DNA from: a virus
Virus record (IMG/VR): IMGVR_UViG_3300007735_000926
Span: 1-64,000 of that record
DNA length: 64,000 nucleotides
Strand: one strand, 5' to 3'
Positions 556-58,432 of the stretch are shown here, one piece after another (within the stretch, counting starts at the first letter, position 1; every line of letters starts with the position of its first letter). The translations under genes were made by a program, and so were the position numbers. The notes below the pieces were generated by a model. That model saw nothing but the letters and a program-made list of their open reading frames with translations. It had not been told where the DNA came from and did no database searches.

Positions 556-1407
556 TCATTTAACTTTATCCATGAAGTTGCTAACTTCTGTTGTCAATGA
601 AGTGAGTGACATTGAAATTTGATAACCATCGGGTGTGATGACACCATTCAATAATCTTCTCGACCCGATCATATTTACCGAAAAGCTACTACAATAAGCC
701 CATCTCATATATCGCAAACCTTTCAATTTAACTTCATAAATATGGGGTGGTTCCATAGTAACAGCTGATAATCTTTTTGGTCTATTGATTCTTATCAATT
801 TATCGACTAAATCATAATTTTTTTGAACAGCATCAGCATTTATCGTATTGAATAATGGAAATGTAATATCTAATGCTCCGTCATTCTGTGCATATTGATA
901 GAGTTTAGGTGTTTCAATATAAGAACCGGGTGCAGTGCTGTATCCGCTACCAATGTTGCCCATTGCTGTTTTAAATTCCTCCATATTACCAATACTGTTG
1001 ATGACATCTCCTGCTTTATTTTTGAAATTTTTGAAATTATCAGATAATTTTAATTCGCCAGCTGGTGCAAATATTTCATTAGCACCACTCTGTAAAAGAC
1101 TATCGATTGATCCCATAGCCCCACTTTGGAACGTATCACCGAATTCATTGGAGAACGACCGAATACCATCACCGAAATAAGGTATGAAAATTTCATCAGT
1201 CTTTTCAACATTTTCGTATAATTTTTCGTAGAATTCATCAGCACTCGCGGATTTAGCTACACTCAAATAACTGCTTATACGATTTAAAGCAGCACTAGAT
1301 GTTATCTTATATGCTGTGAGGAGGACATATGGCGCGACATCTCGATATGGACTATTTCTAGGAATAGAAGTCCAATCATATTCTTTATGCACATTTATTC
1401 TGGCCAT
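556..1407 (-). CDS. Baseplate tail-tube initiator, gp48/gp54-like
   Basis: This 283-residue protein ends in a domain (about 200-283) with PPHIYEVKLKGLRYMRWAY and a 'VNMIGSRRLL...TPDGYQISMSLTSL' stretch. That resembles the tube-fold C-terminus shared by T4 gp48 and gp54, which cap the baseplate and start tube polymerisation. The middle is glycine/serine-rich. T4 gp54 and gp48 are 320 and 364 residues. Neighbours are the putative tape measure upstream and the gp53-like gene downstream, an order consistent with tail initiation. Which of the two T4 proteins it corresponds to cannot be decided. A late-promoter-like box lies 4 bases before the ATG. Confidence 0.45.
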   Translation of the reverse strand: MARINVHKEYDWTSIPRNSPYRDVAPYVLLTAYKITSSAALNRISSYLSVAKSASADEFYEKLYENVEKTDEIFIPYFGDGIRSFSNEFGDTFQSGAMGSIDSLLQSGANEIFAPAGELKLSDNFKNFKNKAGDVINSIGNMEEFKTAMGNIGSGYSTAPGSYIETPKLYQYAQNDGALDITFPLFNTINADAVQKNYDLVDKLIRINRPKRLSAVTMEPPHIYEVKLKGLRYMRWAYCSSFSVNMIGSRRLLNGVITPDGYQISMSLTSLTTEVSNFMDKVK

Positions 1408-1411
1408 TTCT

Positions 1412-1419
1412 ATTATTTA
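1412..1419 (-). promoter_or_regulatory. T4-late-like promoter box of the gp48/54-like gene
   Basis: Reads TAAATAAT on the minus strand, 4 bases before the ATG at 1407, with no Shine-Dalgarno between. Spacing is one base longer than the common arrangement. Confidence 0.5.
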
Positions 1420-1420
1420 A

Positions 1421-3361
1421 TTACGCGAACGCATATGGTGAATTACCATAATCTCCCCTACCACCATTCAATGAAATCTGAGAAGATGATTTACTATTGG
1501 AACCTCCACCGGAATTTGACATAAATATTGGATTTGATGATCCACCTCCACTATTATTGGAAATTGCTTTCAATGTCTCGATTCCTATTTTTCTAATATC
1601 TGATAAAATCGCCACTTGTTCTTTACCGATTGATACCAAATCATCGACATGTTTTTTAGGCTGTTCGTTGACGACTTCCACACTATTATTAGGATTTGTT
1701 ACCCAGCCAGAATTTTTGTATTCTTCGATACTGTTCCATCCCATCTTTTTGGCTCTTCCCAACAATTCATCATCTCCACCACCGCCACCAAATATACTAA
1801 AACCTTTGATCGTGTCTATAACAGTATTGATTACATTTTTCAATGTATCGAAAATATTCGTGATCACACTCATGACAGATGTTGCTATACTTTTAACGTT
1901 TTCGATTATACCAGTTACAAAATCGCTGCCTAAAAATTCTTTTATCTTTTCCCAAAGACCAGAGAACCATTTACCAATGTTGTCTAACATGGGTGTCATT
2001 TTCTCCCACAATCCAGATGCCCAAGTAGATATGTCTCGCCACAATCCAGAGAACCATTTACCAATGTTATCTAACATGGGTGTTATTTTCCCCCAAAGAC
2101 CAGAAAACCATTCAACTATTTTTTGACCAATATCGATTTTTTGTGATGGTTCCATGTTTGGTTCTGCTTCCGATGAGTCATCTATGATTCCAAACCATTC
2201 CAGAGGTTTTCTCAAGAAAGAGGGTAATTTTTTCAATTTATTTTGAACCCATTCTTTAATTTTACCAAACCAAGAAGTGCTCGGTTTTAAATCTTTTTTT
2301 TCTTCTTTATCACCGAATAAACCCATCAAAGTTTCAATACCCATAATGATTGGCCCCATGCCTCCGAATGATAATATACCAAGTCCGAATTGCTTCAGAC
2401 CTTCTGTGATATCTCCAGCTTTAAAAGCATCGTAAGCCATACCCCAACGCTTGAATCCGCCAATCACTGGCAACCACAAAGCATTGTCCCAAATCCAATT
2501 TCCGATTGTTTTACCAATCTCCCCCAAAATATCCATTTCACTTTTGCCAACATTTTTAGGGTCTTCCATTTTAGAATCCATCCAAACGTTTAACATATCT
2601 AATCCAAATGATAATGCAAAACCGACTCCGGGTGCCACCAAATCGACAAGTCCAACCAATGCACTCAAAACATCTATAACTCCTCTAACATTTTGACCTT
2701 TGTTGAAACGAGAAATAGCAAAACCTATAGAAATAATCGTTCCTATGATTGGAATTCTTTTAAATATTTTACCTAATGGTTTTAAAAATTTGAAGATTTT
2801 ACCCATGAATCCTTTACCCAACAATTTACCAGCAAATTTAAAAGGAGCCGCAACGAATTTTGAAAATATTCCGATTAAACCTTTGGCACCATCAATCAAC
2901 ATTTTAATGCCGCCTGATATGCCGATCTTAGATAGCATTTTCAAAGCACCTTTAAACGGTCCATCGGTTAAAAGTCCCATTATCAAAGCACCCACACCAC
3001 CTAACAACATTAAAAGACCACCTAACAATGATCCTTTTTTAGGTGCCTCGGTTTTACCACTTGCTATTTTATTAGCATTTGGGGTGATTTTTTGAACAGA
3101 TGTTTTTAATGCTGTATCATCACTTTTGAAATTTTTCTGGATTTCAAAAAATGTTTTCGCAAAAATTGTAGCGATAGACTTGGTTCTTTTCTGTTCATCA
3201 GAAGACAATGAACTCTTACCCTTTTTATTCGGATCAGCGTTACCCGTTTGAAGAATATTTTTCTCGGACAAAGATTCCCCCTCGGGGACACCCTTTGTCT
3301 CATTGAAAGTCTGCAACAGACCAAGTAATTCTTCTAATAAAGGAACGATGTTTACACTCAC
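1421..3361 (-). CDS. Putative tape measure / tail-core protein with hydrophobic Gly-rich segments
   Basis: This 646-residue protein has long Gly/Leu/Ile/Phe-rich hydrophobic stretches (about 110-270 and 330-360), a Trp-rich tandem repeat (about 415-490, with 'MLDNIGKWFSGLW' twice) and a Ser/Gly-rich end. These features are typical of tape measure proteins that line the tail tube and set its length. T4 gp29 is 590 residues, so the size fits a T4-scale tail. The start is GTG at 3361, chosen because the late box TAAATAAT lies exactly 3 bases upstream. It sits between a coiled-coil gene and the tube-initiator gene. A pore or membrane protein is the main alternative. Confidence 0.5.
   Translation of the reverse strand: MSVNIVPLLEELLGLLQTFNETKGVPEGESLSEKNILQTGNADPNKKGKSSLSSDEQKRTKSIATIFAKTFFEIQKNFKSDDTALKTSVQKITPNANKIASGKTEAPKKGSLLGGLLMLLGGVGALIMGLLTDGPFKGALKMLSKIGISGGIKMLIDGAKGLIGIFSKFVAAPFKFAGKLLGKGFMGKIFKFLKPLGKIFKRIPIIGTIISIGFAISRFNKGQNVRGVIDVLSALVGLVDLVAPGVGFALSFGLDMLNVWMDSKMEDPKNVGKSEMDILGEIGKTIGNWIWDNALWLPVIGGFKRWGMAYDAFKAGDITEGLKQFGLGILSFGGMGPIIMGIETLMGLFGDKEEKKDLKPSTSWFGKIKEWVQNKLKKLPSFLRKPLEWFGIIDDSSEAEPNMEPSQKIDIGQKIVEWFSGLWGKITPMLDNIGKWFSGLWRDISTWASGLWEKMTPMLDNIGKWFSGLWEKIKEFLGSDFVTGIIENVKSIATSVMSVITNIFDTLKNVINTVIDTIKGFSIFGGGGGDDELLGRAKKMGWNSIEEYKNSGWVTNPNNSVEVVNEQPKKHVDDLVSIGKEQVAILSDIRKIGIETLKAISNNSGGGSSNPIFMSNSGGGSNSKSSSQISLNGGRGDYGNSPYAFA
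1951..2105 (-). repeat. Two copies of an 87-bp-period internal repeat in the tape-measure-like gene
   Basis: About 50 bases starting at 1959 recur at 2046 with a few substitutions. Each copy encodes 'TPMLDNIGKWFSGLW', so the repeat is in frame (29 residues). Confidence 0.8.
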
Positions 3362-3364
3362 TCA

Positions 3365-3372
3365 ATTATTTA
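3365..3372 (-). promoter_or_regulatory. T4-late-like promoter box of the tape-measure-like gene
   Basis: TAAATAAT followed by TGA and the GTG start at 3361 (3-base spacing). The box includes the TAA stop of the upstream coiled-coil gene. Confidence 0.6.
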
Positions 3373-5204
3373 ACTGATTTATCACCTTTGCATTTCCATT
3401 TTTTACGTGACAATCTATTGGGGCTATTTGGATCGTTTCTCCAATCACCTTTTATTTTATTGCTTCTAGCGCAATACGCATCACCTTTGGATGTGCCCGG
3501 TCGAATTCTATCACCGCCATCTTTAGCTTTACCAGCTTGTCCATAACGAACTGTCTTGGTTCTACCAGTTTTTTTATTTTTGATAACTTTTTTGAATCTT
3601 TTACCGCTACTTTCCAACAAAGCGTTAACTTCTTGTAAATCAATCAAGAAATCGTTGATATCCAAATTGAAAGAAGATGCGTATCTTGATGTTAATTGAT
3701 CAAAGGATTCACCGATTACTTCTTTTTTCATACTTTGGATTGTTGACAACAATTGTTTTACATTGGTGAATCCATCTCTATTCATGGAATAGAATCCTTT
3801 CAATCTATCATTTATGATGTCTTTATTTAATTTACTAAATGGTAATTTTTTAACTAATGGTTTTAATACGCTTTTAGCATCTTCCCAATCTTGTTTATTT
3901 CTAATACTTTCCAATTTATCAATAAATTCTTTCAGAGCTTCATAAACAGGACTGCTATCCAGATTTTCCAAAGGTATTGTTTTCCTATCTATTGCATTTG
4001 ATGCAATGCTTGAAAAGTATTTACCAAGAATTTTAGCTGGTAATTTATCAAACATTCTCATCGTTCCTATGTTTATATTAGAATTCATCAATCGGGAATC
4101 AAACTCTCGCATTCTTTCTTGAAATTGTTTTTCATGTTCATTGATAAATGAGAAAATCGGATTGTCATCAGTTGATAATTGTTTCAACAATTTTAATTTC
4201 GATGCTATATCTTTAGAAACTTTTACGAAATCAACATTTTTTGAATCTATTTCTTCATCGGAAATATCATTTTCTATTTTATATCTAAGATAAAGACCTT
4301 TGGCTTTATCTTTAATCAGTTCTTTAACCAACAAAATAACATTATCATTATTTTTGATATTTTTTTCTGTCACAGTACTTATTTTATCCTGCAACTCTTC
4401 TAATTTTTGTTTAGCTTCTAAGTATTGCCCTTCTTCCGATATCAATTTTTTCTCCAAAGTATTAATTTCTTTTTGATACGTATCGATACTACTTTGTTTA
4501 GCCGAACTTTGTCTAAGACTGATATCCATTTGCGCTTGTTTTATTTGCTCGTCAATATTGTTTCTGAGATCAGTATCTTTGGATTTAGATTTCTTGTTTT
4601 TCAACCTTTTTATGTAATCATTGATTTCTGAAATTTTATTCGCAACATTTTCCGCTTCCGCTTTTAATTTAGCCAGTTCTTCTATTTGATTTCTAATTCC
4701 AGTGACATTCGATGCCCTACGATCAACTTCAACAATAAGTCGATTGAATTCTCTTTCCTCTTCAAATGAAATAGAATTTCTAATATTGTTTTTTTCATCA
4801 TCACCTTCTTTTTTTCCGCCCATGTATTTACTGTATATATTTTTAAATTCAGAATAAAAATTCTTAGAATTGAAAAGCAACGCAAAAGAATTTCTCACTC
4901 TCATATTGTTTTCAGCTTCGATTCGATATACATCTTTTTGACTAGCCATTTTAGTAGGATCAATTCCATACTTTCTCATTGGATCGATTTTTTGTCTTTT
5001 TTCAAAGTTATCTACTACGCCAACTGGACCTGATGCATAACCCCTAGATGTTTCAGGTGAAAACACTTGCCCATCGTCTGTAATACCAGCTTCCGTACCA
5101 GTTACCCCTCTAGGACCGATTTGTCTTTGAATGTTGAAATATCTTTCGCCCGGTTTAGTTCCCTTTGCTTCCAACGCCAATGTGTATAAATCATCAAAAT
5201 TCAT
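3366..5204 (-). CDS. Coiled-coil virion protein with a C-terminal Cys-containing 'YCARS' motif
   Basis: A 612-residue protein from the ATG at 5204; this start has the late box TAAATAAT exactly 3 bases upstream, whereas the longer frame would need a TTG. The N-terminus carries 'DDLYTLALEAKG', resembling other N-terminal peptides in this genome. Residues about 150-330 are Lys/Glu/Gln-rich with heptad character, predicting coiled coil. The C-terminus contains 'DAYCARS...DPNSPNRLSRKKWKC', a short motif seen in proteins of many phages and of giant viruses, function unknown to me. Its place upstream of the tape-measure-like gene suggests a tail or packaged protein. No enzymatic motif is visible. 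Confidence 0.6.
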   Translation of the reverse strand: MNFDDLYTLALEAKGTKPGERYFNIQRQIGPRGVTGTEAGITDDGQVFSPETSRGYASGPVGVVDNFEKRQKIDPMRKYGIDPTKMASQKDVYRIEAENNMRVRNSFALLFNSKNFYSEFKNIYSKYMGGKKEGDDEKNNIRNSISFEEEREFNRLIVEVDRRASNVTGIRNQIEELAKLKAEAENVANKISEINDYIKRLKNKKSKSKDTDLRNNIDEQIKQAQMDISLRQSSAKQSSIDTYQKEINTLEKKLISEEGQYLEAKQKLEELQDKISTVTEKNIKNNDNVILLVKELIKDKAKGLYLRYKIENDISDEEIDSKNVDFVKVSKDIASKLKLLKQLSTDDNPIFSFINEHEKQFQERMREFDSRLMNSNINIGTMRMFDKLPAKILGKYFSSIASNAIDRKTIPLENLDSSPVYEALKEFIDKLESIRNKQDWEDAKSVLKPLVKKLPFSKLNKDIINDRLKGFYSMNRDGFTNVKQLLSTIQSMKKEVIGESFDQLTSRYASSFNLDINDFLIDLQEVNALLESSGKRFKKVIKNKKTGRTKTVRYGQAGKAKDGGDRIRPGTSKGDAYCARSNKIKGDWRNDPNSPNRLSRKKWKCKGDKSVK

Positions 5205-5207
5205 ATT

Positions 5208-5215
5208 ATTATTTA
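5208..5215 (-). promoter_or_regulatory. T4-late-like promoter box of the coiled-coil gene
   Basis: TAAATAAT plus AAT, then ATG at 5204. It is part of a divergent pair with the plus-strand box at 5227, so it cannot be a by-product of an upstream stop codon. Confidence 0.7.
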
Positions 5216-5226: not shown

Positions 5227-5234
5227 TAAATAAT
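5227..5234 (+). promoter_or_regulatory. T4-late-like promoter box of the 327-aa gene
   Basis: TAAATAAT followed by ATGAGAAGTT and the ATG at 5245. Spacing is 10 bases, longer than usual. An AGAAG lies just before the ATG. An ATG at 5235 opens only a frame of fewer than 20 codons. Confidence 0.5.
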
Positions 5235-5244
5235 ATGAGAAGTT

Positions 5245-6228
5245 ATGTTAGACAGAGAAAACATTGGATCAATTTTACAGGAAATGTCTAATGAAAGACA
5301 AATTCCAAATGAATCGCAGAAAAAAGTTGCAGATTTTTTTGTAGATCTCGTTTTGAAATTACAAAAAGGTGATAAAGAAGCGATTCAAATCTTGAACATG
5401 ACTCCCCAAGAATTACAACAATTGGCATCTCAGGAAACATTGCAAACAGAAGCCTTTGAAAATTTACGAAGTAAAGCATCCGGGTTATTTGGTGGAGATG
5501 CAGCGATGAAAAGATATAAATTACTAATACAATCTTTGAGTAAACACATTTGGGAATTGGAACAGGATTTGAAAAATACCAAAACTGAAGATGTCTCAGA
5601 ATATAGTGGCATGCTTGACAAATTGCAAAAAGTCGAACCAACTCTTAAACCTGAAGGTGGTTTCTTCCAAAAAGTTGGATATGGAGTTGGTAGAGGAGTG
5701 GGAACGGTGGCTAAAATAGGTTCTGTGGGTGTGCTAGGTTCAACACTGGGTGGTTTGGGATTACCAGCTTATGCCGTTGGTGGAATTATAGGTGGTGGTC
5801 TAAGTGTATTGAAAAATTCACAGAATACCAAAATGGACGCCAAGACAAAATTAAAACAAGCACTTATTGGTGCTGGATTGGGTGCTTTATCTGGCTATGC
5901 TTTTTCAAAATTGAAAAGCATGATGAGTGGTAACGAATCAAGTGTATCTGGTCATAACCATGTTTCTGGTAATGTTTCAAATACCATACAACAAATAAAC
6001 AATCCTGATGTAATTACGAAAGGTGTAGAGTCTTATTTGAAGCAAAATAACATACCTTTCGATAGCGTCAAATATGATGGTGGCGATTATATCGTTTACA
6101 CTGATGGTGGTGCTACAAATTACATAAATTATCCACAACTAAAAATGAACATACTCACCACTGATACTCTTGGATCAAGAGGTAAATTATCGGACTATAT
6201 AAACAACATGATAAAAACAAATGAATAA
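5245..6228 (+). CDS. Predicted virion protein with a Gly-rich hydrophobic segment
   Basis: This 327-residue protein has a helical, charged N-terminal half, then a Gly/Ala/Leu-rich hydrophobic stretch (about 145-225) that could cross or disrupt membranes, then a Ser/Asn-rich linker and a small polar C-terminal domain. I do not recognise the family. It heads the plus-strand operon 5245-8572 and overlaps the next gene by 8 bases. The late-type promoter and neighbours suggest a structural or internal head protein, possibly ejected with DNA. Membrane function is an inference from composition only. Confidence 0.55.
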   Translation: MLDRENIGSILQEMSNERQIPNESQKKVADFFVDLVLKLQKGDKEAIQILNMTPQELQQLASQETLQTEAFENLRSKASGLFGGDAAMKRYKLLIQSLSKHIWELEQDLKNTKTEDVSEYSGMLDKLQKVEPTLKPEGGFFQKVGYGVGRGVGTVAKIGSVGVLGSTLGGLGLPAYAVGGIIGGGLSVLKNSQNTKMDAKTKLKQALIGAGLGALSGYAFSKLKSMMSGNESSVSGHNHVSGNVSNTIQQINNPDVITKGVESYLKQNNIPFDSVKYDGGDYIVYTDGGATNYINYPQLKMNILTTDTLGSRGKLSDYINNMIKTNE

Positions 6229-6532
6229 TCAAGACATACACAATATAGCAGATTTATACGAAGAAGGTCTTTGGGATCGTATGAAAGCAGGAGCATCATC
6301 CATCAAAGGTGGTTTGAAAAACATGAAAATTTTGGGAGGAACTGGCTATGCAAAAGGAGCGCAACAAGCAAAGAATAATAGTTTAATGAATTCCTTCGTA
6401 TCTAAAATGATGAAAGATATTGAAAAATTTGATTCTGATGTATTAAATTATAAACAATCTGCGAACTATCAAAACATTTTAACAAAAGTGGATAATATTA
6501 GAAAAATCATTGAAAATTATCAAAAATACTAA
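6221..6532 (+). CDS. Small putative internal/capsid-targeted protein
   Basis: This 103-residue lysine-rich protein begins with an amphipathic peptide containing DLYEEGLWDRMKAG. The same phrase recurs in the protein at 7757 (LLEEGLFDRMKA). The LYE tripeptide matches the (L/I)xE consensus cut by T4-type prohead protease, and N-terminal peptides of this kind target T4 internal proteins to the prohead core. The rest is helical and Lys-rich, ending in 'YQKY'. The protein family is unrecognised; the targeting idea is inference from motif and context. Confidence 0.6.
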   Translation: MNNQDIHNIADLYEEGLWDRMKAGASSIKGGLKNMKILGGTGYAKGAQQAKNNSLMNSFVSKMMKDIEKFDSDVLNYKQSANYQNILTKVDNIRKIIENYQKY

Positions 6533-6537
6533 ATAAT
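6530..6537 (+). promoter_or_regulatory. T4-late-like promoter box of the 188-aa gene
   Basis: TAAATAAT, then CTT, then ATG at 6541. It overlaps the stop codon of the preceding gene. Confidence 0.6.
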
Positions 6538-6540
6538 CTT

Positions 6541-7107
6541 ATGGGAAAAAAATTTGATGCAATTTATGAATCCGTCATCTCCAGAAGTGAAGCTGGTGGA
6601 TATATTCCGGGTGACTACGTGAAATTCCGTTCTGGTTATAAAAATACGGAAACCTACAAATATATGCCATCCACTCTTCAAAAAGAAGTTGATGAATTGG
6701 CTACTTGTGGATTGAATATTAAGGTTTGCCAAGTTGGTGATAAACAATCAGGGTTTTCTGCTGGTAATCAATTTAAACCAGCATCAATGAACGTCTTAAC
6801 TATTGCCGCCGATCAAGGTGGTGGAAGAACCTATGGCAGAGTCACTGTCACTCCTGATATGGTCGATATGGTCGATGTGAGTGCGGGTGTTTCAGTCCCA
6901 GATAAATTCAAGAAAAAGGATGTGGTTATTATCAAACCCAAGAAATTGAAGGTTGATCCAAATCTTATCACCAACGTGACTGACAAGGGAAATGGTAAGA
7001 ATACTCCAACAAGCCTTAAATTAGCAGGTGAATCTAAATCTTGGGAATCTACACAAGAACTTGGAATGCTTTACGAAAGCATGATGAGAGGTGAAGATAC
7101 GATTTGA
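6541..7107 (+). CDS. Conserved-looking virion-associated protein of unknown function
   Basis: This 188-residue protein opens with 'FDAIYESVI', an N-terminal (L/I)xE peptide like those of its neighbours. A central domain (about 20-125) contains 'GDYVKFRSGY' and a Gly-rich 'QGGGRTYGRVTV', suggesting a beta-rich fold. The C-terminus repeats the peptide idea as 'SWESTQELGMLYESMM', very close to the start of the next protein ('DWESVNELVMIYEETL'). I do not recognise the fold. Late box 3 bases before the ATG. Probably packaged or part of the particle; no enzymatic residues are evident. Confidence 0.6.
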   Translation: MGKKFDAIYESVISRSEAGGYIPGDYVKFRSGYKNTETYKYMPSTLQKEVDELATCGLNIKVCQVGDKQSGFSAGNQFKPASMNVLTIAADQGGGRTYGRVTVTPDMVDMVDVSAGVSVPDKFKKKDVVIIKPKKLKVDPNLITNVTDKGNGKNTPTSLKLAGESKSWESTQELGMLYESMMRGEDTI

Positions 7108-7495: not shown

Positions 7496-7752
7496 TGGAA
7501 CAGATGTCCCAAAGAGAATTGCTGGAAAGTTTGCATGATTGGTTCGCCCCACATGTTGATAAGAAAGGTGAGAAATTCAAAGGTTGGATTAACTGTAAAA
7601 CAGGTGGACCTTGTGGTAGAGAAGATACATCAAAAGGATCATACCCGGCCTGTAGACCTACAAAAGCACAGTGCAAAAAAATAAAAGGTAAGATGTATAA
7701 AAAGAAAAGTTCAAAGCGAGTCAATTGGGAAAATAATAAAAAAGATAAATAA
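7495..7752 (+). CDS. Small Lys-rich protein with 'GGPCGREDTSKGSYPACRPT' motif
   Basis: This 85-residue protein is dominated by a Cys-containing motif: 'GWINCKTGGPCGRE' followed by 'YPACRPTKAQCKK', then a strongly basic tail. The 'PCGR..YPACRPT' signature is known in small proteins of phages and large DNA viruses with no established function. It overlaps the preceding 'PSAYAS' gene by one base and precedes the 271-aa gene, so three distinct Cys-motif proteins of this style lie within 4.4 kb (with the 612-aa protein). Four Cys in a small basic protein could bind zinc or form disulfides; that is a guess. Confidence 0.65.
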   Translation: MEQMSQRELLESLHDWFAPHVDKKGEKFKGWINCKTGGPCGREDTSKGSYPACRPTKAQCKKIKGKMYKKKSSKRVNWENNKKDK

Positions 7753-7753
7753 T
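7746..7753 (+). promoter_or_regulatory. T4-late-like promoter box of the 271-aa gene
   Basis: TAAATAAT, then AAT, then ATG at 7757. It overlaps the stop codon of the preceding gene. Confidence 0.6.
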
Positions 7754-7756
7754 AAT

Positions 7757-8572
7757 ATGGCAAGATATACAAACGAAGATCAACGTAATTTGGAAGAACT
7801 CTTGGAAGAAGGCTTGTTCGACCGCATGAAGGCTTATGGTGCCAATGCAATCGGATCAGTCAAAGGTGCGGGGCAACAACTTAAAGGCAAAGCGCAACAA
7901 GTTTATGGGAACGCTTTGAACAAAGCTGCTGAATTAGGAGGTCAGGCACTGGGTGTCGATGCGTCTCAAGGTAATTTAGCACAAAAAGGACAAGCAATGC
8001 AACAAGCAGGTCAATCAAATGTTCAAGCTGGATCAACACAAGGCGAGAATTCCAAAATTGACTATCTGAAAAAAAATATCTCAAAAAGAATTGATAATTT
8101 TGTGGCTAATCTGAACAATGATATCCAAAAATTAGGATTAAATATTGGAAAAATTGAATTTGTTTCAGAAATTGAAGATGCTTTAGAAGGTTTGAAACAA
8201 AATTTAGCATCAACCCCATCCCCTTCTCCGCAGCAACAAACTCAAGCAACTCCACCTCCATTACCGCAGCAGCAACAAACTCAAGCAACTCCACCTCCAT
8301 TACCGCAGCAGCAACAAACTCAAGATAATGTAGTGAGTGAACCAGTGAAACCTAAACAAACTAATCCGCGTTTTATGAGTGCTAACGCGAGAAAAAAATA
8401 CGAAAAGGAACAAGCATTAAAACGTAGCGCATCTGGTAAAAAGGGAGCAATGGTAAGAAATTCAAAACAATCCCAAACAGTAACAAATCCGAAGAAATCT
8501 AAAACAAGAGAATATTTTCAAAGACCTCTTGGTCAAGATGAAGAAGATTTAGAAGAATTGTTCTGGAGATAA
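7757..8572 (+). CDS. Putative internal virion protein with Pro/Gln-rich linker
   Basis: This 271-residue protein starts with a peptide containing ELLEEGLFDRMKAYG, shared with the 103-aa protein at 6221. An Ala/Gln/Gly-rich helical region follows (about 35-95), then a helical segment, a Pro/Gln linker built from a 13-residue repeat (about 155-190), a basic stretch, and an acidic end (DEEDLEELFWR). The composition resembles a packaged or scaffold-associated protein. Its stop codon directly abuts the stop of the convergent clamp-loader gene, so there is no intergenic DNA. Function unknown. Confidence 0.6.
   Translation: MARYTNEDQRNLEELLEEGLFDRMKAYGANAIGSVKGAGQQLKGKAQQVYGNALNKAAELGGQALGVDASQGNLAQKGQAMQQAGQSNVQAGSTQGENSKIDYLKKNISKRIDNFVANLNNDIQKLGLNIGKIEFVSEIEDALEGLKQNLASTPSPSPQQQTQATPPPLPQQQQTQATPPPLPQQQQTQDNVVSEPVKPKQTNPRFMSANARKKYEKEQALKRSASGKKGAMVRNSKQSQTVTNPKKSKTREYFQRPLGQDEEDLEELFWR
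8231..8325 (+). repeat. 39-bp in-frame direct repeat (Pro/Gln linker)
   Basis: Two perfect copies of a 39-base unit (8231-8269 and 8270-8308) and a partial third copy from 8309. Each unit encodes 13 residues of the QQTQATPPPLPQQ type. Confidence 0.9.
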
Positions 8573-11327: not shown

Positions 11328-12059
11328 TTAATTATCAAAAAATGTAACATCAATGTCGAACGATCTATCTTCACCATCGATCACAACCTTTGTTTGCAAC
11401 CTATCAATTTCTTTGATAGTATCGATATATTTGGCAATATCTTGATTGATAGTTAAAGGTAGATTCTCGATAACCGAAATTCTATCTTTGACAGGTAATT
11501 CTGAGAAATTTAAGGATTTTTCACCAAATTTAACACTCTTCACAAATTTGACGATTTCAAATGTGAAGAGGTTGCTCAAATTCTTCCCAACATCTTTATC
11601 TCCATCTTTTTTCAGGATATCGATAGCATAGTTAATAACTTTGTTCTCTTCAATTAAGTTGGGCGTTTCCAACTCCACTTCTACTGCTCCTTTGACGACA
11701 TGTTGGAGGGAGTTATCAATTTTATCCAGAATCTTGACATTTGTGATATCAATTTCACCACCAGAAGTTTTCACAATTGTTCCCAAGCTTTCTGTTCGCA
11801 ATTTTAAAATGACAGGAACCTTATCCACAACCAACCAATCATTTGACCCGGTATTTTCCATGATGACATCATTCAACATCTTCTGAAATTTCAAAACACC
11901 GACAGTTCCTTCAGCGAAGGTTGAAATGATGTTTTTCTGTTGCTTGAACGAGAGGGGAGTACAAGTGATTTTTTCCCCTGTGGAGATACGTTTCACTTCG
12001 AACGTATCTTTCTTAAGATCTTGGAGACTATCCAAGAAATTTTTCACATTATTATCCAT
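11328..12059 (-). CDS. Baseplate hub assembly protein, gp26-like
   Basis: A 243-residue protein from ATG 12059, supported by a TAAATACA box exactly 3 bases upstream; the longer frame would start with TTG at 12092 inside the previous gene's end. The N-terminal half, 'ITCTPLSFKQQKNIISTF...VLKFQKMLNDVI', resembles the T4 gp26-type baseplate family seen in T4-like phages, which helps hub assembly. T4 gp26 is 208 residues. Located downstream of tube genes and a 235-aa gene. The family call is moderate and rests on pattern plus synteny. Confidence 0.5.
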   Translation of the reverse strand: MDNNVKNFLDSLQDLKKDTFEVKRISTGEKITCTPLSFKQQKNIISTFAEGTVGVLKFQKMLNDVIMENTGSNDWLVVDKVPVILKLRTESLGTIVKTSGGEIDITNVKILDKIDNSLQHVVKGAVEVELETPNLIEENKVINYAIDILKKDGDKDVGKNLSNLFTFEIVKFVKSVKFGEKSLNFSELPVKDRISVIENLPLTINQDIAKYIDTIKEIDRLQTKVVIDGEDRSFDIDVTFFDN

Positions 12060-12062
12060 GAG

Positions 12063-12070
12063 TGTATTTA
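12063..12070 (-). promoter_or_regulatory. T4-late-like box before the gp26-like gene
   Basis: TAAATACA, then CTC, then ATG at 12059. It lies inside the alternative longer frame and argues for the shorter protein. Confidence 0.5.
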
Positions 12071-12796: not shown

Positions 12797-13404
12797 TAGA
12801 CAGCAATTTGCTCATAATTTTGGCAACCGAATGTCACAGATTTTATTGGAAATTCGGTATTTTGATAATCCATTGTAAAACCTTCAATATTTGTTGGAAA
12901 AGCTTTTCTGAAAATGTATCCTTTTCGCAATTTTCCGTCATTTGTATATTGTTTAACCGTAATATCAGCTTTAAGGTTGGCACCTGCTTCGATTAAACCC
13001 TTTATTGCTAAAGCTATGATCCAAGGTCTAAAATACTCATGTTCCAAGTCTTTGCGTGTTTCCAAGAAATTTACTGAGAAGCTACGAGATAAGAAATCTT
13101 GTCTACTGTTTAAAACATATCCGGGTAGAAACCCGCCACTATTTTCTCCAATAGAAGATGATCCAAAATTAGCACCTTCAGTTGGGATAGTCACAGACTG
13201 AGCAGGTAAAATATTACCATTTCTTGTCATCGAATTTGGCGTGATATTAGCTCTCCATTTTTCACCAGCCAAATCCAAATATTGATTTATTGACCCATTT
13301 GATACGCCATCGATAGATACCGACCATAATACTGGTATGGAAAGACAGTATTTAGCGTCCCCTGAGAACGCTTGGAGGAAATCTTCAATCTGTGGGTTAG
13401 ACAT
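12796..13404 (-). CDS. Tail-tube-fold protein (gp19 superfamily paralogue)
   Basis: A 202-residue protein whose C-terminus ('RKAFPTNIEGFTMDYQNTEF' then 'SVTFGCQNYEQ') carries the 'afPt.i..i.l.y...e...i.vtf.y..y' ending typical of T4 gp19-type tube proteins. It is one of three such proteins in 4.4 kb. The dedicated tube protein is probably the next gene upstream, so this one may form a tail terminator or connector ring, or a minor tube component. Late-like box TAAGTAAT 3 bases before ATG. Confidence 0.6.
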   Translation of the reverse strand: MSNPQIEDFLQAFSGDAKYCLSIPVLWSVSIDGVSNGSINQYLDLAGEKWRANITPNSMTRNGNILPAQSVTIPTEGANFGSSSIGENSGGFLPGYVLNSRQDFLSRSFSVNFLETRKDLEHEYFRPWIIALAIKGLIEAGANLKADITVKQYTNDGKLRKGYIFRKAFPTNIEGFTMDYQNTEFPIKSVTFGCQNYEQIAV

Positions 13405-13407
13405 GTA

Positions 13408-13415
13408 ATTACTTA
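13408..13415 (-). promoter_or_regulatory. Variant late box (TAAGTAAT)
   Basis: TAAGTAAT, then TAC, then ATG at 13404. It has an A-to-G change in the fourth position, as also seen at 58425. Confidence 0.5.
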
Positions 13416-13998: not shown

Positions 13999-14001
13999 AT
14001 T

Positions 14002-14009
14002 ATTATTTA
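14002..14009 (-). promoter_or_regulatory. T4-late-like promoter of the tail tube gene
   Basis: TAAATAAT, then AAT, then ATG at 13998, directly downstream of the sheath terminator. No upstream stop codon overlaps the box. Confidence 0.75.
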
Positions 14010-44875: not shown

Positions 44876-44878
44876 AAT

Positions 44879-44886: not shown

Positions 44887-45210
44887 GTCTTTCTTATAGA
44901 CCGAATCATCTTGGACTTGTCCAACATTTTTTTCCAATAAAGTTGTGATAATGATTTCCATGCTTCGAGTTTTAAGGTTGAAATTTTTAATGAAACGATT
45001 TCCACCATCATTAATCTCAAATAAAACATCACCGTTGAATTCTTTATTTTGATAACAAGTAATTATCACGGATGAATTACTAGGATCTACCATTACTGAC
45101 CACTTACGAGGATCATGTTGAGCATATTTATCGAATAATTTAACAACAATGAAACCAGAATCTCTTAATCTCTTAACAAAATAACCCTGTGTGGTGATAT
45201 TATTCTTCAT
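44884..45210 (-). CDS. Small conserved-looking protein, unknown function
   Basis: A 108-residue protein with 'TTQGYFVKRLRDSGFIVVKL', 'DPRKWSVMVDPSNSSVIITC' and 'GNRFIKNFNLKTRSMEIIIT'. This mixed alpha/beta layout is similar to small proteins of other T4-like phages in my memory, without assigned function. It shares the operon leading to primase. Late box 3 bases before ATG. Confidence 0.5.
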   Translation of the reverse strand: MKNNITTQGYFVKRLRDSGFIVVKLFDKYAQHDPRKWSVMVDPSNSSVIITCYQNKEFNGDVLFEINDGGNRFIKNFNLKTRSMEIIITTLLEKNVGQVQDDSVYKKD

Positions 45211-45213
45211 TAA

Positions 45214-45221
45214 AATATTTA
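45214..45221 (-). promoter_or_regulatory. T4-late-like box (TAAATATT)
   Basis: TAAATATT, then TTA, then ATG at 45210. Confidence 0.5.
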
Positions 45222-45459: not shown

Positions 45460-46167
45460 TTAATTTTTTAAAGAACTGAAGATATATTCCATCTCAAAAT
45501 CGCCATTTCTAGTGATAATACATCCGACACCTAATTTGGAATTTATCTTGAATATATTACCTGTCTTAGAGACTTTAGATAGCAATTTCAAATTATCAAT
45601 CTTCAAGATGAAAGCATTCAATTCGAAATCGACTTCATCACCAATAATACTTAAAGAATCACTATTCGGAACAGTTTCATCCCCGATTTTCCACACCAAA
45701 TGATCATCCTCTGTTGAGATATATAATTTTGCAGTGTTGGTAATCGATGACTTTTGAATGAGGTTTGAGAGAAAATCAAAATCTAAATCAAATTCAATGT
45801 TGTATTCGAAATTACGAATTTTTTCCAATGATAACTTTGGTCTAGTGATGACACCTTCCTCGTGGAGGTGATACTTAAATTTGATTTGCTTATCTTTATA
45901 CTCTAAATGATTACCATTCAATTTCATTCTGAGGTTTTCAGATGAAATCATATCCAAAGCTTTGGAAAGTTTCTTCAAAGAGGGCAAATTCAAATTTTTA
46001 TACTCGAAATCCCCTTGTAGATAAGCGTGAGCATACATGGAATTGTCTTCGCTCGAAGCAATCGCATGTATCCCATCATCGGTCATCTCCAAAATACATG
46101 TATCATGTATTTGGGACAAGCTTAGTAATAGGCACTGAAACGGTTTTTTGCTTAGATTGATTTGCAT
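45460..46167 (-). CDS. 45: Sliding clamp, gp45
   Basis: A 235-residue protein (T4: 228) with the PCNA-like two-domain trace of gp45: 'CILEMTDDGIHAIASSEDNS' with 'MYAHAYL', 'LPSLKKLSKALDM' and, in the second half, 'LYISTEDDHLVWKIGDE' and a C-terminal 'GDFEMEYIFSSLKN'. It tethers polymerase to DNA and in T4 also activates late promoters with gp33/gp55, relevant to the many late boxes here. Its start lies inside the upstream 151-aa gene, and AGAAAGG sits 4 bases before the ATG. Confidence 0.9.
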   Translation of the reverse strand: MQINLSKKPFQCLLLSLSQIHDTCILEMTDDGIHAIASSEDNSMYAHAYLQGDFEYKNLNLPSLKKLSKALDMISSENLRMKLNGNHLEYKDKQIKFKYHLHEEGVITRPKLSLEKIRNFEYNIEFDLDFDFLSNLIQKSSITNTAKLYISTEDDHLVWKIGDETVPNSDSLSIIGDEVDFELNAFILKIDNLKLLSKVSKTGNIFKINSKLGVGCIITRNGDFEMEYIFSSLKN

Positions 46168-47614: not shown

Positions 47615-48497
47615 GATGTTTCAATCTTGAAACTCTTATTTTATTTTTATGTTCTTCGGATTTAGGTATGCCAGATTTAGCTCTACTTATTTTTTCTTTG
47701 GTTTCTTCTGAAAGAATTTTACCCAACTTAGCTTTTCTCATTTTTTCCTTAGTTTCTTCTGACAATGGTTTACCTAATTTCGCCTTCCTCATCTTCTCTC
47801 TCGACTCCATAGGCATACACCTACCCAATGCCGATTTTCTCATTTTTTCCTTGGCTTCCTCCGTATGTGTATGGCCTAATCTAGCCATTTTAGCATTTTC
47901 TTTATGTTCATCTGATAATGATTTTCCTTTTTTAGATTTACTTATTTTTTGTTTTGTTTCTTCTGAAACAGATTTCCCTAATCTAAAATTTCTCATTTTT
48001 TCTTTTGATTCTTCAGTATGGGTTCTTCCGAGACATCTTATTTTAAAATCTTCTGATCTGGGTTTTCTCAATTTTTGTTTAGTTTCTTCAGGTTTCGGTT
48101 TTCCGATTCTCGACAAACTCATTTTTTTCCTAGTTTCATCAGAACATTTGTGACCAGTTCTATCTGTTGAAAACTTGCACCTATTATAACCTTTGTTTAT
48201 ATCGAAAGAATTAAATTTTTGAATAAAAAATGCTTCTCGTTCCAATAATTCATCATTATCTTTATGTTTGTCGAAATTTTCAAAAATTTCCAATATTTCA
48301 ACTTCAAAAGAATCCCACCCGTGCTTTATCATAGCTTTTTCAAAATAAGTATCGCCTATTATTTTCTTCGCACTACTTTTGTGTGAATTAATTCTGGAAT
48401 ATAAATTTACAGATTTTCCTATGTAAATTTTACCATTATCAATACAAGTTATTTTATATATTCCAGCTTTATTCGAAAGATTTATATCAATACCCAT
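47601..48497 (-). CDS. GIY-YIG homing endonuclease with NUMOD3 repeats
   Basis: A 298-residue free-standing homing endonuclease. The catalytic domain is at the N-terminus ('AGIYKITCIDNGKIYIGKSV' with 'SRINSHKSS'). Residues about 115-290 hold about eight NUMOD3-type DNA-binding repeats of the form 'S.ETK.KMRKAKLGKPLSEE'. Such SegA-type enzymes spread by cutting unoccupied alleles. It stands between the candidate gp59-slot gene (1-base junction) and gp32; in T4 the GIY-YIG enzyme SegG is also next to gene 32. The reading frame looks intact. Confidence 0.93.
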   Translation of the reverse strand: MGIDINLSNKAGIYKITCIDNGKIYIGKSVNLYSRINSHKSSAKKIIGDTYFEKAMIKHGWDSFEVEILEIFENFDKHKDNDELLEREAFFIQKFNSFDINKGYNRCKFSTDRTGHKCSDETRKKMSLSRIGKPKPEETKQKLRKPRSEDFKIRCLGRTHTEESKEKMRNFRLGKSVSEETKQKISKSKKGKSLSDEHKENAKMARLGHTHTEEAKEKMRKSALGRCMPMESREKMRKAKLGKPLSEETKEKMRKAKLGKILSEETKEKISRAKSGIPKSEEHKNKIRVSRLKHLDKC

Positions 48498-49130
48498 TCA
48501 TATACTTAACTGCTTAGAAACCTTTTCAATTGCTTGTCTTGATAATTCCTTCATTTTCTTGCTCAGATAAAATTTGTTTTTTGTTTTTTGAAACGTAATC
48601 CAAAAGTCTGAAAAAATAAAATCCAGAATCCGATTCTCCACCTCTATTTTCGAAACACCTAAAGCATGCAATGCATACATATTGATATGATGATTCTTTA
48701 AATGTTCAATCATATTTGGTAAAGAGTCACTAATATATAATGGATATGACTCCAAAGTCAAGTCTTTTTCTTTACAAAAATTTTTAATAAATTTAAGGCC
48801 ATCGACCAATCGTTTAAGAGAATTCTCCGAATCGGGATCATCCATCTCAATTTTTTTCATGTATTGAGAATATGCTTTCTTCGCCTTGGAAGACAAATAA
48901 AATTCGAGATCAAAATAATCATCGTCCTCGAAAATTGCATAAGGAGCAGAGAAATAATCATCAATTTTAATATTCTGATAATTATTAAAAAATCTCTCTA
49001 ATGATGCGAGATAATCCAACTTGGATTGATCCATATCAGAAAAATCTTTCCTGATGCGAAATGGTTTGTCTCTCATCTTACGAGAAATTGCTAAATGAGA
49101 ATTGTAAATTCTTTTTTGAAAATCTGTCAT
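48498..49130 (-). CDS. Unknown protein in the gp59 (helicase-loader) slot
   Basis: A 210-residue charged, helical protein: 'NSHLAISRKMRDKPFRIRKD', 'YLASLERFFNNYQNIKIDDY' and 'LEFYLSSKAKKAYSQYMKKI'. I do not recognise T4 gp59 in it, but its length (gp59 is 217), helical composition and position upstream of gp32 (T4 order 59-32) make a helicase-loader analogue a testable idea. It abuts the homing endonuclease gene with no gap. Confidence 0.6.
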   Translation of the reverse strand: MTDFQKRIYNSHLAISRKMRDKPFRIRKDFSDMDQSKLDYLASLERFFNNYQNIKIDDYFSAPYAIFEDDDYFDLEFYLSSKAKKAYSQYMKKIEMDDPDSENSLKRLVDGLKFIKNFCKEKDLTLESYPLYISDSLPNMIEHLKNHHINMYALHALGVSKIEVENRILDFIFSDFWITFQKTKNKFYLSKKMKELSRQAIEKVSKQLSI

Positions 49131-52906: not shown

Positions 52907-53341
52907 TCATTTTTTATCAAAATCTGGATCAAATTCATCGAATATGTGATCTTTTACCGCTCTGGTTCTATAATAATTCCATATTTTTCTAGCTTCTCCC
53001 ACATCTATAATTCTAACTTCATCGGGAGATATTGGTCGCCCAAAATTATCTGCCTGATTTTCCACCCTATAAATAACATCTCCTTTATAATTTTTCTGTA
53101 AATGCATTATTTTATATGGAAATAAGTTGGCAGTCCCCTTTTCGGGGGTCCAATTTTTCATAACACACCATTCTCCTATATTATTCATCAAATCATCATT
53201 TTCCAAAGGATCAACTGAAAATAATCCTTGGAATTTTTTCAATTCTGGTGGTTTTTGTGATCTATCAGCGTTTGGAATCCGTTTCTTATCAATTGATTCT
53301 AAGTATAATTCTGATATAGCATCCCAATCTTTTTTATTCAT
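52907..53341 (-). CDS. Unknown protein under a late-like promoter
   Basis: A 144-residue protein from ATG 53341, chosen because TAAATATA lies 3 bases upstream; a frame starting at 53365 would put the box inside the gene. The N-terminal peptide 'NKKDWDAISELYLESIDKKR' resembles those of the packaged-type proteins near 6-8 kb. The rest ('GEWCVMKNWTPEKGTANLFP', 'YRVENQADNFGRPISPDEVR') is mixed alpha/beta. No family recognised. Divergent from the 533-aa gene. Confidence 0.6.
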   Translation of the reverse strand: MNKKDWDAISELYLESIDKKRIPNADRSQKPPELKKFQGLFSVDPLENDDLMNNIGEWCVMKNWTPEKGTANLFPYKIMHLQKNYKGDVIYRVENQADNFGRPISPDEVRIIDVGEARKIWNYYRTRAVKDHIFDEFDPDFDKK

Positions 53342-53344
53342 AAG

Positions 53345-53352
53345 TATATTTA
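53345..53352 (-). promoter_or_regulatory. T4-late-like box (TAAATATA)
   Basis: TAAATATA, then CTT, then ATG at 53341; divergent partner of the 53375 box. Confidence 0.6.
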
Positions 53353-53374: not shown

Positions 53375-53382
53375 TAAATAAT
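53375..53382 (+). promoter_or_regulatory. T4-late-like promoter of the 533-aa gene
   Basis: TAAATAAT, then ATT, then ATG at 53386. Confidence 0.7.
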
Positions 53383-53385
53383 ATT

Positions 53386-54987
53386 ATGAGAAATTATGGC
53401 TTTGATTATTTGGTGAAAAAAGTTCAAGTGTTGAACGAAATGGCTCCGAAAAGTAAATTCTGGAATAGTAATTTTCCAGAATTTATGGATTTATATTTAG
53501 ATGTGCAAAATAAAATGAAACAACATCCAAAAGCACCATCTGGGCCAACTCTTGGTCACAGAAGAATAGAATATATCACTCGCATGTTATTCAATTTTCT
53601 TTCAAAAGATGAACTTGCAGCGATTGGTATTGATAAGAATGCAGGTTTTGGGGCCAATGTTCGAAATTTAACAATCCGAGATATTCCACATGAAGAACGA
53701 ATGGAAAGGGGAATTAAAAATTCCACAGAAATTACCCCAGAATATGCTAAATTTGCCCCAGTAAATTCGCGTGCTTCTTTCTTACAACAAGATTTCATGT
53801 TAGCAAAAATGGCGCTGGCATATCCAGAAAAAGCAATGTCCAAAAAGTTTGTTAATAAAGTAATGGATGATGCAAATATTGACGCATTTTTAAACGATAA
53901 TCCTTTAAAAACAGGAAGTTCCAATTTTGCATATGGAACGATAAAGAAAAAAGAAGAAATTCTCAAAATGGACATGGGGGACGTTAATGAAATTTTAAAC
54001 AAAGCCAAAGCAATAATTAAAAAACTTAGAAAATCTAAAAAATTGCCAAGAGGATTGCGTACTTCTATATACCATGCTGATATTGAAAAAATTGGAGAAA
54101 AACCAACAGAATTCAATACTAAAAATAAATTATATCCATTGTTTGTAATGCAAACTACTTTGGAACAATTTTTGGAAATAAAATTAAAAATCATTCAAGA
54201 TATTAGAAATAAAGAAGAAATAACTCCAGAAGGAGAAAGATTGTTTAAATTTGATAGAACCATATTATCTAATCTATTAGATACTGTTAATAAAAGAATA
54301 GATGAGAAAAAACCACTTGAGGTGGACAAAATATATAAAAATATCATTGAAAAAATGACTGGTATTTCCGATCTGGTTCGTAGAGAATATGATGCTTTGT
54401 ATAAAGAATTACAAAGCAATCCGATGGATGCATTAAAAGATCGTTATGATACCGTATTTGATATGTTGGACGACGAGCTTTTGGATAATTTGGAACGAGA
54501 AGGTACTATAAATTCAGAAGATCGTGAAATTCTTAAAAAATGGGCGAGTATTTCTGGAAATTTGCAAAAAAATATCCAAACTAGAGGTGAAAGAATCCTC
54601 CGTAAAAATATACAGAAAGGGGAACAGGCTAAACATGCTGAAGATGCCAAGAAAAAATATGAAGACCGAGGTAAAAAATGGGCTGCTAAAGAGAAACCGA
54701 ATATTGATATTAAAGATGAAGTGGAAGGTTTAACAGCTTCAGAAATTGAGGAAAAATTGAGGGAAATGATGCTTGACCCCGATGCAGATATTGAAAAAAT
54801 TGATGCTATGTCCGAATATTTATCCAAACTTCAAGCAGATGGTCCCGAAGATGAAGAAGGTGTTATGGGCTACATGACTGAACAAGTCAATAAAGACAGA
54901 CATCTTAACAACATCGGAGAGTATAAAGACCGTGGATTCAAAAAGCCTAAAAATTATGCTCATTGGTTATGGATGAATGAGCAATAA
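53386..54987 (+). CDS. Large Lys/Glu-rich helical protein, probably virion-associated
   Basis: A 533-residue, highly charged, mostly helical protein. N-terminal peptide 'YGFDYLVKKVQVLNEMAPKS'; central helices; coiled-coil-like region about 330-470; C-terminus 'EYKDRGFKKPKNYAHWLWMN'. No family recognised. A late box 3 bases before ATG and a packaged-protein-like start suggest an internal or structural protein. It is followed after 8 bases by the Mom-like gene, so both may be expressed together late in infection. Confidence 0.6.
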   Translation: MRNYGFDYLVKKVQVLNEMAPKSKFWNSNFPEFMDLYLDVQNKMKQHPKAPSGPTLGHRRIEYITRMLFNFLSKDELAAIGIDKNAGFGANVRNLTIRDIPHEERMERGIKNSTEITPEYAKFAPVNSRASFLQQDFMLAKMALAYPEKAMSKKFVNKVMDDANIDAFLNDNPLKTGSSNFAYGTIKKKEEILKMDMGDVNEILNKAKAIIKKLRKSKKLPRGLRTSIYHADIEKIGEKPTEFNTKNKLYPLFVMQTTLEQFLEIKLKIIQDIRNKEEITPEGERLFKFDRTILSNLLDTVNKRIDEKKPLEVDKIYKNIIEKMTGISDLVRREYDALYKELQSNPMDALKDRYDTVFDMLDDELLDNLEREGTINSEDREILKKWASISGNLQKNIQTRGERILRKNIQKGEQAKHAEDAKKKYEDRGKKWAAKEKPNIDIKDEVEGLTASEIEEKLREMMLDPDADIEKIDAMSEYLSKLQADGPEDEEGVMGYMTEQVNKDRHLNNIGEYKDRGFKKPKNYAHWLWMNEQ

Positions 54988-57756: not shown

Positions 57757-57990
57757 TTACGCATTCTCCACAAATGCGTATAATTCTTTCGCTCTCTTAA
57801 TAATAGATTCGGTAGTCGGTAATAGATCAGTGATGATTTTCTCATCAATCTTAGATTCTACATAACCATCATCACCAATCATTTTCTTTTTGGAGTTTTC
57901 CAACTTCTGATGGTAAATTTCCATCAAGTCTCCATGTGCGATGTCCAATATATCGAGCCTTATCTCGTATGCGTTTTTGTTTGTGTTCAT
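57757..57990 (-). CDS. Small protein common in T4-like phages, unknown function
   Basis: A 77-residue protein: 'NKNAYEIRLDILDIAHGDLM' and 'LLPTTESIIKRAKELYAFVE'. The layout 'YEIRl.iL..A......y' plus 'pt.e.Ii..A..Ly.FV' is familiar from small T4-like phage proteins without function. The 90 bases to the next gene (57667-57756) hold no gene I can support. Confidence 0.55.
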   Translation of the reverse strand: MNTNKNAYEIRLDILDIAHGDLMEIYHQKLENSKKKMIGDDGYVESKIDEKIITDLLPTTESIIKRAKELYAFVENA

Positions 57991-58024
57991 TTGTGTGTAA
58001 TGTTAGGGTGTTTTGCCTAACGAG

Positions 58025-58032
58025 ATTATTTA
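58025..58032 (-). promoter_or_regulatory. Possible late-like box with a longer leader
   Basis: TAAATAAT located 34 bases before the ATG at 57990. A GTTAGG/CCTAAC inverted repeat (58002-58007 and 58016-58021) lies between box and start. Confidence 0.3.
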
Positions 58033-58055
58033 CAACATTTCAAAGAAATGCAATA

Positions 58056-58421
58056 TTATTTTGAATAATCTTTTGGATTCTTTGCTTGAAGATAAACTTC
58101 ACCATATGCTTCAAGAGTTCCCGTGATCATTTGAAAATCTTTTTGTGAAAGAGAATCCAGATCTTTGAGTTTGGCATAAGCTTCTTTATATTTTTCTTTG
58201 AAGTGAGATTCTTTATCGTCCTTTTTAGCCTTTCTCAAAGCATCGGCATATGGTTTTACCTTACCAGCGAAGTGGTAAGCTGTTAAAATAGTAAAGGAGC
58301 CTTTCTTTCTAGCTGATTCTTCTATTTTCTTTGCACCAGCTGCTCTTTTGCTGACAAATGTAGGGAAGAGAGTATCAACGAGTTCATTTATAAGTTTTTC
58401 AAATAAAGCTGTAAATTGCAT
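58056..58421 (-). CDS. Basic helical protein under a late-like promoter
   Basis: A 121-residue protein: N-terminal 'QFTALFEKLINELVDTLFPT', then a very Lys/Ala-rich helical part ('KVKPYADALRKAKKDDKESH') and 'LETLEAYGE'-like end ('ITGTLEAYGEVYLQAKNPKD'). Resembles packaged DNA-binding or core proteins in composition. No family recognised. Late variant box 3 bases before ATG. Confidence 0.55.
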   Translation of the reverse strand: MQFTALFEKLINELVDTLFPTFVSKRAAGAKKIEESARKKGSFTILTAYHFAGKVKPYADALRKAKKDDKESHFKEKYKEAYAKLKDLDSLSQKDFQMITGTLEAYGEVYLQAKNPKDYSK

Positions 58422-58424
58422 AAT

Positions 58425-58432
58425 ATTACTTA
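58425..58432 (-). promoter_or_regulatory. Variant late box (TAAGTAAT)
   Basis: TAAGTAAT, then ATT, then ATG at 58421. Confidence 0.5.

Follow-up and report, generated by a model that had tools for sequence, protein, structure and literature searches.

The DNA analysed here, called the window, comprises bases 1-64000 of a 197,682-base virus record from IMG/VR (IMGVR_UViG_3300007735_000926), and the remaining record was read as well. The record looks complete, because the same sequence occurs at both of its ends (window 26, record 197581). It carries the genes of a T4-like myovirus, among them DNA polymerase, tail sheath, large terminase, UvsX, single-strand binding protein, clamp and primase, and further gp44, gp46, gp47, gp55, major capsid and portal. 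The polymerase and terminase share only about 30-35% identity with named phages, while relatives of the terminase are found in 22 IMG/VR loci, many at 73-98% identity. The genome is 63% AT. This study concerns the TAAATA boxes that precede many of its genes five nucleotides (nt) before the start codon (Table 1), and a second type of promoter that precedes its early genes.

Thirty boxes stand before genes in the window, 24 of them at a gap of exactly 5 nt. The others have gaps of 6 (three boxes), 7, 8 and 12 nt (one each). A first-pass annotation of the window had counted 29 boxes with 22 at gap 5; its list of the remaining gaps was borne out. The window contains 19 copies of TAAATA-N5-ATG, where dinucleotide shuffles give an expectation of 2.24 (shuffle maximum 7, none at 19), and 26 of TAARTA-N5-RTG, with 3.98 expected. 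All but two of these 26 sites (36106-36119 and 50277-50290) open an open reading frame (ORF) of at least 60 amino acids (aa). Histograms of the TAAATA-to-ATG distance, made without any gene calls, have a lone spike at 5 nt, both in the window (19 versus 0-4 at other gaps) and in the whole record (49 versus a background of about 5). The annotation's proposal hinged on such a distance peak relative to shuffled AT-rich sequence, and the peak is present. ORFs of at least 60 aa start at 47 of the 49 record sites, versus 17% of all ATGs, and 48 of the 399 ORFs with 80 aa or more carry a box at gap 5, versus 1.1 per other gap. Furthermore, when k-mers preceding candidate starts were scanned without bias, TAAATA at gap 5 ranked first among six-letter words in the late region.

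The box often takes the form [A/G][C/T]TAAATAAT, with A or G at -13 and C or T at -12. The full T4 late consensus, TATAAATA, occurs only 13 times in the record; of the T4-type box initially proposed, the TAAATA core holds, not the full sequence. A pyrimidine is found at -1 in 82-90% of the late sites, compared with 58% of unboxed starts. Five divergent gene pairs carry back-to-back boxes with 28-47 bp between their start codons, which leaves no room for two leaders; the lengths of 28, 31 and 36 bp are kept in relatives. Boxes precede the genes for the tail sheath, three tail-tube-like proteins, baseplate wedge and portal. They are missing from 11 genes on the replication and recombination side (gp43, uvsX, gp32, gp45, gp41, primase, gp44, gp46, gp47, gp55 and the helicase in the UvsW position), in agreement with the earlier remark that mostly structural-type genes are boxed. 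The major capsid and terminase genes are also unboxed; each follows a boxed gene of the same strand.

The spacing is conserved in relatives. Orthologues have a box at exactly gap 5 in 31 of 38 cases in G001, 18 of 20 in G006 and 34 of 41 in G007. Some of the misses, for example the tail sheath and the tail-tube-like gene 13426-13998, reflect an offset N-terminus, with the box shifted together with the start codon, as read by eye. In 47 relatives chosen by gp55 alone, and thus independently of the box, the gap-5 spike appears in all gp55 identity bins, from 58 to 95%. Nine whole records selected in this way contain 6-41 matches, versus 0-6 in a backward control. In the outgroup G037, with 37% gp55 identity, gap-5 matches are not above the control (4 versus 6).

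No distance peak for Shine-Dalgarno words (GGAG/AGGA/GAGG) was found at any distance in G000, G001 or G007, whereas the positive controls, T4 and the Pelagibacter phage Mosig, show one at 5-8 nt. In T4 itself (35% GC) the Shine-Dalgarno peak lies at 5-7 nt and the distance from TATAAATA to ATG peaks at 28 nt; T4 has a single TAARTA box at gap 5 and no gap-5 TAAATA spike. Two premises of the annotation thus prove sound: T4 mRNAs have leaders with Shine-Dalgarno sites, and the boxed genes here have no room for them, as part of a genome-wide absence of the signal. No genes of the IF3, S1 or S21 families were found in the record.

The early genes have a different promoter with a comparable outcome. 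About 60 AAAACTA elements with a -10-like hexamer, mostly located at record 122-160 kb, are followed by a start codon at a distance of 15, 18 or 21 nt. AAAACTA-N15-ATG was seen 28 times in a 20-kb slice, against 0.10 expected. The consensus is TAAAAACTA-N3-[TC]ANAAT-N5-C-ATG, with the nine-base element TAAAAACTA at -24 to -16, a TANAAT-like -10 at -12 to -7, and a C at -1 relative to the predicted +1. The sigma70-like hexamer ends 6 nt before the ATG. All 17 promoters with an ATG 3 nt further on have a C before the predicted start and a purine at it. The C-purine signature therefore stays with the promoter when the ATG moves, a check that separates the transcription start from the start codon. 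In addition, the 5' end of a tRNA-Ile gene coincides with the predicted +1; for three further tRNA genes the corresponding distance is 0-4 nt. The early motif at gap 15 was present in G001, G006 and G007, three of the four terminase-selected records read at length, and was not seen in the most distant one, G008. It also occurs in many viral contigs retrieved by the motif itself, a partly circular observation.

A homologue of the T4 late sigma factor gp55, for which the annotation had suggested a search together with gp33, is encoded at record 65347-65787 on the minus strand, directly adjoining gp47/gp46 (phrog_234, E=4.7e-24; phmmer with T4 gp55 as query, E=9e-13). It is the sole Sigma70 region-2 match in the record, and no second phage sigma factor for the early promoters was found there. 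The early promoters are therefore presumably read by the host polymerase.

By textbook geometry, a sigma70 -10 box sits at -12 to -7 and a T4 late box at -13 to -6. The spacers of 6 nt (early) and 5 nt (late) would thus put +1 on the A of the ATG in both classes. Very probably, judging from these sequence patterns, the boxes are T4-type late core promoters that give leaderless late mRNAs, and early genes reach the same state by another promoter. We infer that host RNA polymerase carrying the phage gp55, probably assisted by the gp45 clamp, reads the late boxes. The first transcribed base would be the A (or G) that opens the start codon or would lie 1-3 nt ahead of that codon, and the late mRNA would be translated by recognition of a start codon at the RNA 5' end, with no need for a Shine-Dalgarno site. 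Early genes would presumably be transcribed by a host sigma70-type polymerase from the TAAAAACTA promoter, with the same leaderless result. The idea of genome-wide leaderless or near-leaderless late mRNAs is thereby supported, and needs widening, since the early genes share the close spacing with another promoter. For the whole T4-like clade, we regard it as rather likely that leaderless mRNAs serve almost every promoter-proximal gene, whether early or late, that the -35 element is replaced by the new nine-base TAAAAACTA, and that late promoters are read by a gp55 lacking the clamp-binding tail known from T4.

Several observations weigh against this interpretation. About 60% of the called genes carry neither promoter; their translation must begin within polycistronic mRNAs and follow another non-Shine-Dalgarno route. 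These genes, mostly inside operons, are A-rich upstream, and in the early region A is enriched at -3, -6 and around -13. Some early genes have leaders of 5-40 nt. The late box matches T4 only in its TAAATA core; the first two bases of TATAAATA are not conserved, and a position at -13 to -6 follows here from the predicted +1. The gp55 homologue ends in EGDEYDDND, without the DSPSLDFLYEAND tail of T4, which is likewise lacking in S-PM2 and Mosig. In T4, this C-terminal tail is the clamp-binding part. For gp33, a short and poorly conserved protein, no match was obtained among the small candidate proteins of the record. With the tail lacking and no gp33 identified, the link between late transcription and replication may differ from that in T4 or be absent altogether. 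Finally, the gene calls were made by a home-made script.

Leaderless mRNA could also be the normal mode of the host, to which the phage would have adapted in a lineage where -10 boxes abut start codons, instead of reprogramming translation by a change to the ribosome such as has been proposed for phiYS40 (PMC3594737). This concerns the reason for the arrangement and is compatible with leaderless transcription from the boxes; we give it a little better than an even chance. It is favored by the missing IF3-, S1- and S21-like genes, by the enrichment of TATAAT-N6-ATG over control in Saccharibacteria (133 versus 7 and 61 versus 7) and several other genomes, and by the -10 boxes abutting ORFs that are common in Deinococcus-Thermus (PMC12340547). 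On the other hand, no contig of a metagenome-assembled genome (MAG) with a relative was found.

Alternatively, the boxes may be promoters whose start is scattered by a few bases, which would produce short leaders of 1-10 nt instead of strictly leaderless mRNAs. In favor of this are gaps of 6, 7 and 8 nt in the record (5, 3 and 2 cases) and the 3-nt leaders that are common in early genes. Yet gap 5 is found in 48 of 58 promoter boxes, and spacers of 5 and 6 nt are what boxes at -13 to -6 and -12 to -7 require for a +1 on the ATG. We consider this possible, but rather unlikely.

It is far less probable that the boxes are non-promoter signals, either a non-Shine-Dalgarno ribosome-binding element or a stop-restart signal (TAA...ATG). 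Their position beside start codons in a virus whose host apparently makes no use of Shine-Dalgarno sites would suit a ribosome-binding element. However, the core equals that of the T4 late promoter in a record that encodes gp55, the boxes track structural and not replication genes, and the early motif also stands before tRNA genes, whose products are never translated. In the stop-restart version, the TAA would be the stop of the upstream gene, as it is in 10 of 55 cases; it is not in the other 45, and divergent pairs have no upstream gene at all; this version was rejected. An artefact, suggested by the AT-rich genome in which TAAATA is a common word, or by start codons chosen to fit boxes, deserves practically no credence in view of the shuffles (2.2 versus 19 seen), a histogram independent of gene calls, the T4 control without a spike and the conservation in orthologues, which together rule out composition as the cause.

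The late system resembles that of T4 in the gp55 homologue beside gp47/gp46, the gp45-like clamp, the TAAATA core and the boxes before structural genes. It differs in the 5-nt spacing and the absence of a Shine-Dalgarno signal, where T4 mRNAs have leaders with such sites, and also in the unconserved TA before TAAATA, the absent gp55 tail and the lack of an identified gp33. In the Thermus phage phiYS40, most middle and late mRNAs have no leaders, which was linked to altered IF2/IF3 levels in Thermus (PMC3594737). Leaderless mRNAs are likewise predicted for the phage described here. Unlike phiYS40, it has a T4-type late promoter with gp55, the same pattern in early genes, and no IF3/S1/S21-like gene; phiYS40 serves as a functional precedent. 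In D. radiodurans, cellular TANNNT boxes precede about a third of the genes with a short, constant spacing to the start codon, giving leaderless mRNA (PMC12340547). These -10-adjacent ORFs of Deinococcus-Thermus share the fixed short distance, but the phage early promoter adds the conserved TAAAAACTA, and the late class would be served by a viral sigma factor.

In the literature searched, no report of a leaderless arrangement in a T4-like phage was found. The only other phage found to be reported with leaderless mRNAs as the rule is phiYS40, and its report does not appear to involve a T4 late sigma. Because of this precedent, and because cellular genes that lack leaders and adjoin a -10 box have been described (PMC12340547), the arrangement does not constitute a new category.

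The host was sought in several ways. A promoter motif typical of Bacteroidetes is the -7 element TAnnTTTG, which was not more frequent in the early than in the late region, and a Bacteroidota host was rejected on this ground. The early -10 of the phage, TANAAT-like, also differs from this motif. On the other hand, the absence of a Shine-Dalgarno signal and the A enrichment at promoterless early-region starts are shared with the Bacteroidetes member F. johnsoniae, where translation is non-Shine-Dalgarno and transcripts are mostly leadered, 87% by over 10 nt (PMC6847099). Searching genome contigs for the terminase yielded no match. The early-promoter pattern had 46 single scattered matches in genome contigs, near chance by a rough estimate, with no phage-bearing MAG among them, and a BLAST of the early motif against named phages gave nothing useful.

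If confirmed, these findings would describe a T4-type virus whose large gene programme operates without leaders for ribosome binding, and whose sequence directly gives the positions of its start codons and transcription starts to the single base. For many uncultivated phages, this would settle gene starts, the promoter consensus and which genes are early or late. It would also indicate hosts, or infected cells, with efficient initiation at a 5'-terminal AUG, and provide a test case for leaderless translation sustaining massive protein synthesis.

Table 1. Promoter boxes and related features in the window (window coordinates; the gap is the number of nt between element and start codon)
Feature	Position	Strand	Remark
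Late box, gap 6, ATG (gene 556-1407)	1405..1419	-	
Late box, gap 5, GTG (gene 1421-3361)	3359..3372	-	spacing conserved in G001/G006/G007
Late box, gap 5, ATG (gene 3366-5204)	5202..5215	-	shuffle-tested motif, orthologue comparison
Late box, gap 12, ATG (gene 5245-6228)	5227..5247	+	spacing outlier
Late box, gap 5, ATG (gene 6541-7107)	6530..6543	+	motif, orthologue comparison
Late box, gap 5, ATG (gene 7757-8572)	7746..7759	+	motif, orthologue comparison
Late box, gap 5, ATG (gene 11328-12059)	12057..12070	-	motif, orthologue comparison
Late box TAAGTA, gap 5, ATG (tail-tube-like gene 12796-13404)	13402..13415	-	motif, orthologue comparison
Late box, gap 5, ATG (tail-tube-like gene 13426-13998)	13996..14009	-	box moves with ATG in relatives, N-terminus offset
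Late box, gap 5, ATG (tail sheath 14096-16549)	16547..16560	-	motif, orthologue comparison
Late box, gap 6, ATG (tail-tube-like gene 16587-17192)	17190..17204	-	
Late box, gap 5, ATG (gene 19414-19662, directly upstream of terminase 17632-19404)	19660..19673	-	
Late box, gap 5, ATG (gene 20471-20827)	20825..20838	-	motif, orthologue comparison
Late box, gap 5, ATG, in frame inside ORF 20901-21938	21519..21532	-	nested 206-aa product predicted
Late box, gap 5, ATG (gene 21941-22306)	22304..22317	-	motif, orthologue comparison
Late box, full TATAAATA, gap 5, ATG (gene 24043-24672)	24670..24683	-	
Late box, gap 5, ATG (gene 24734-26449)	26447..26460	-	divergent pair, 31 bp between start codons
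Late box, gap 5, GTG (gene 26481-26966)	26470..26483	+	divergent partner of 24734-26449
Late box, gap 7, ATG (baseplate wedge 26977-28782)	26964..26979	+	
Late box, gap 6, ATG (gene 30862-33411)	30850..30864	+	
Late box, gap 5, GTG (gene 33905-36088)	33894..33907	+	motif, orthologue comparison
Late box, gap 5, ATG (gene 37876-38538)	37865..37878	+	TAA of box is stop of upstream gene
Early-type promoter AAAACTA, gap 15, ATG (ORF 42262-42453)	42451..42475	-	sole early-type promoter in window
Late box, gap 8, ATG (gene 42475-42828)	42826..42842	-	divergent pair, 36 bp
Late box, gap 5, ATG (gene 42865-43275)	42854..42867	+	divergent partner of 42475-42828
Late box, gap 5, ATG (gene 44564-44875)	44873..44886	-	motif, orthologue comparison
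Late box, gap 5, ATG (gene 44884-45210)	45208..45221	-	motif, orthologue comparison
gp45-like sliding clamp, no box, start provisional	45460..46086	-	phrog_223, E=8.5e-10
Late box TAAGTA, gap 5, ATG (GIY-YIG/NUMOD3 homing endonuclease-like gene 47601-48497)	48495..48508	-	
Late box, gap 5, ATG (gene 52907-53341)	53339..53352	-	divergent pair, 44 bp
Late box, gap 5, ATG (gene 53386-54987)	53375..53388	+	divergent partner of 52907-53341
Late box TAAGTA, gap 5, ATG (gene 58056-58421)	58419..58432	-	motif, orthologue comparison

The boxes had been described as standing before genes, which applies to nearly all of them, but the gap-5 site at 21519-21532 lies in frame inside an ORF. This ORF, 20901-21938 on the minus strand, encodes a 345-aa protein without a family match, and G001, G006 and G007 retain the whole ORF as well as its internal box. 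The three tail-tube-like genes (phrog_45), all on the minus strand, are different genes within a single genome.

In the early region (record 122-172 kb; L004-L007, for example L005:15558-15582), genes form short units, many with their own TAAAAACTA promoter. The units are often preceded by a terminator-like hairpin and T-run immediately upstream of the promoter, and the upstream block GGAAGCGCATCCTACACGCTT is repeated word for word before several of them. The gp32-like gene (46609-47526, minus strand) has a TTGACA/TATAAT-like upstream sequence, clearest in its G001 counterpart, and a leader of several nt, so that not every promoter in the clade is leaderless.

Among cellular genomes, TATAAT-N6-ATG was strongly above the backward control in Saccharibacteria, Paceibacterota, Gracilibacteria and an Erysipelotrichaceae MAG (the genomes behind L153, L161, L157, L173 and L169), which suggests many leaderless genes there. 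Upstream of gene 57415-57666, a non-coding stretch at window 57667-57756 is conserved among relatives (G001, G007); it had no Rfam match, and its fold is weak (z -1.3). The record also contains a nicotinate phosphoribosyltransferase-like gene (record 169725-170585) and a PRPP-synthetase-like gene (record 175538-176479), both on the minus strand, a pair that may form an NAD-rebuilding counter-defence.

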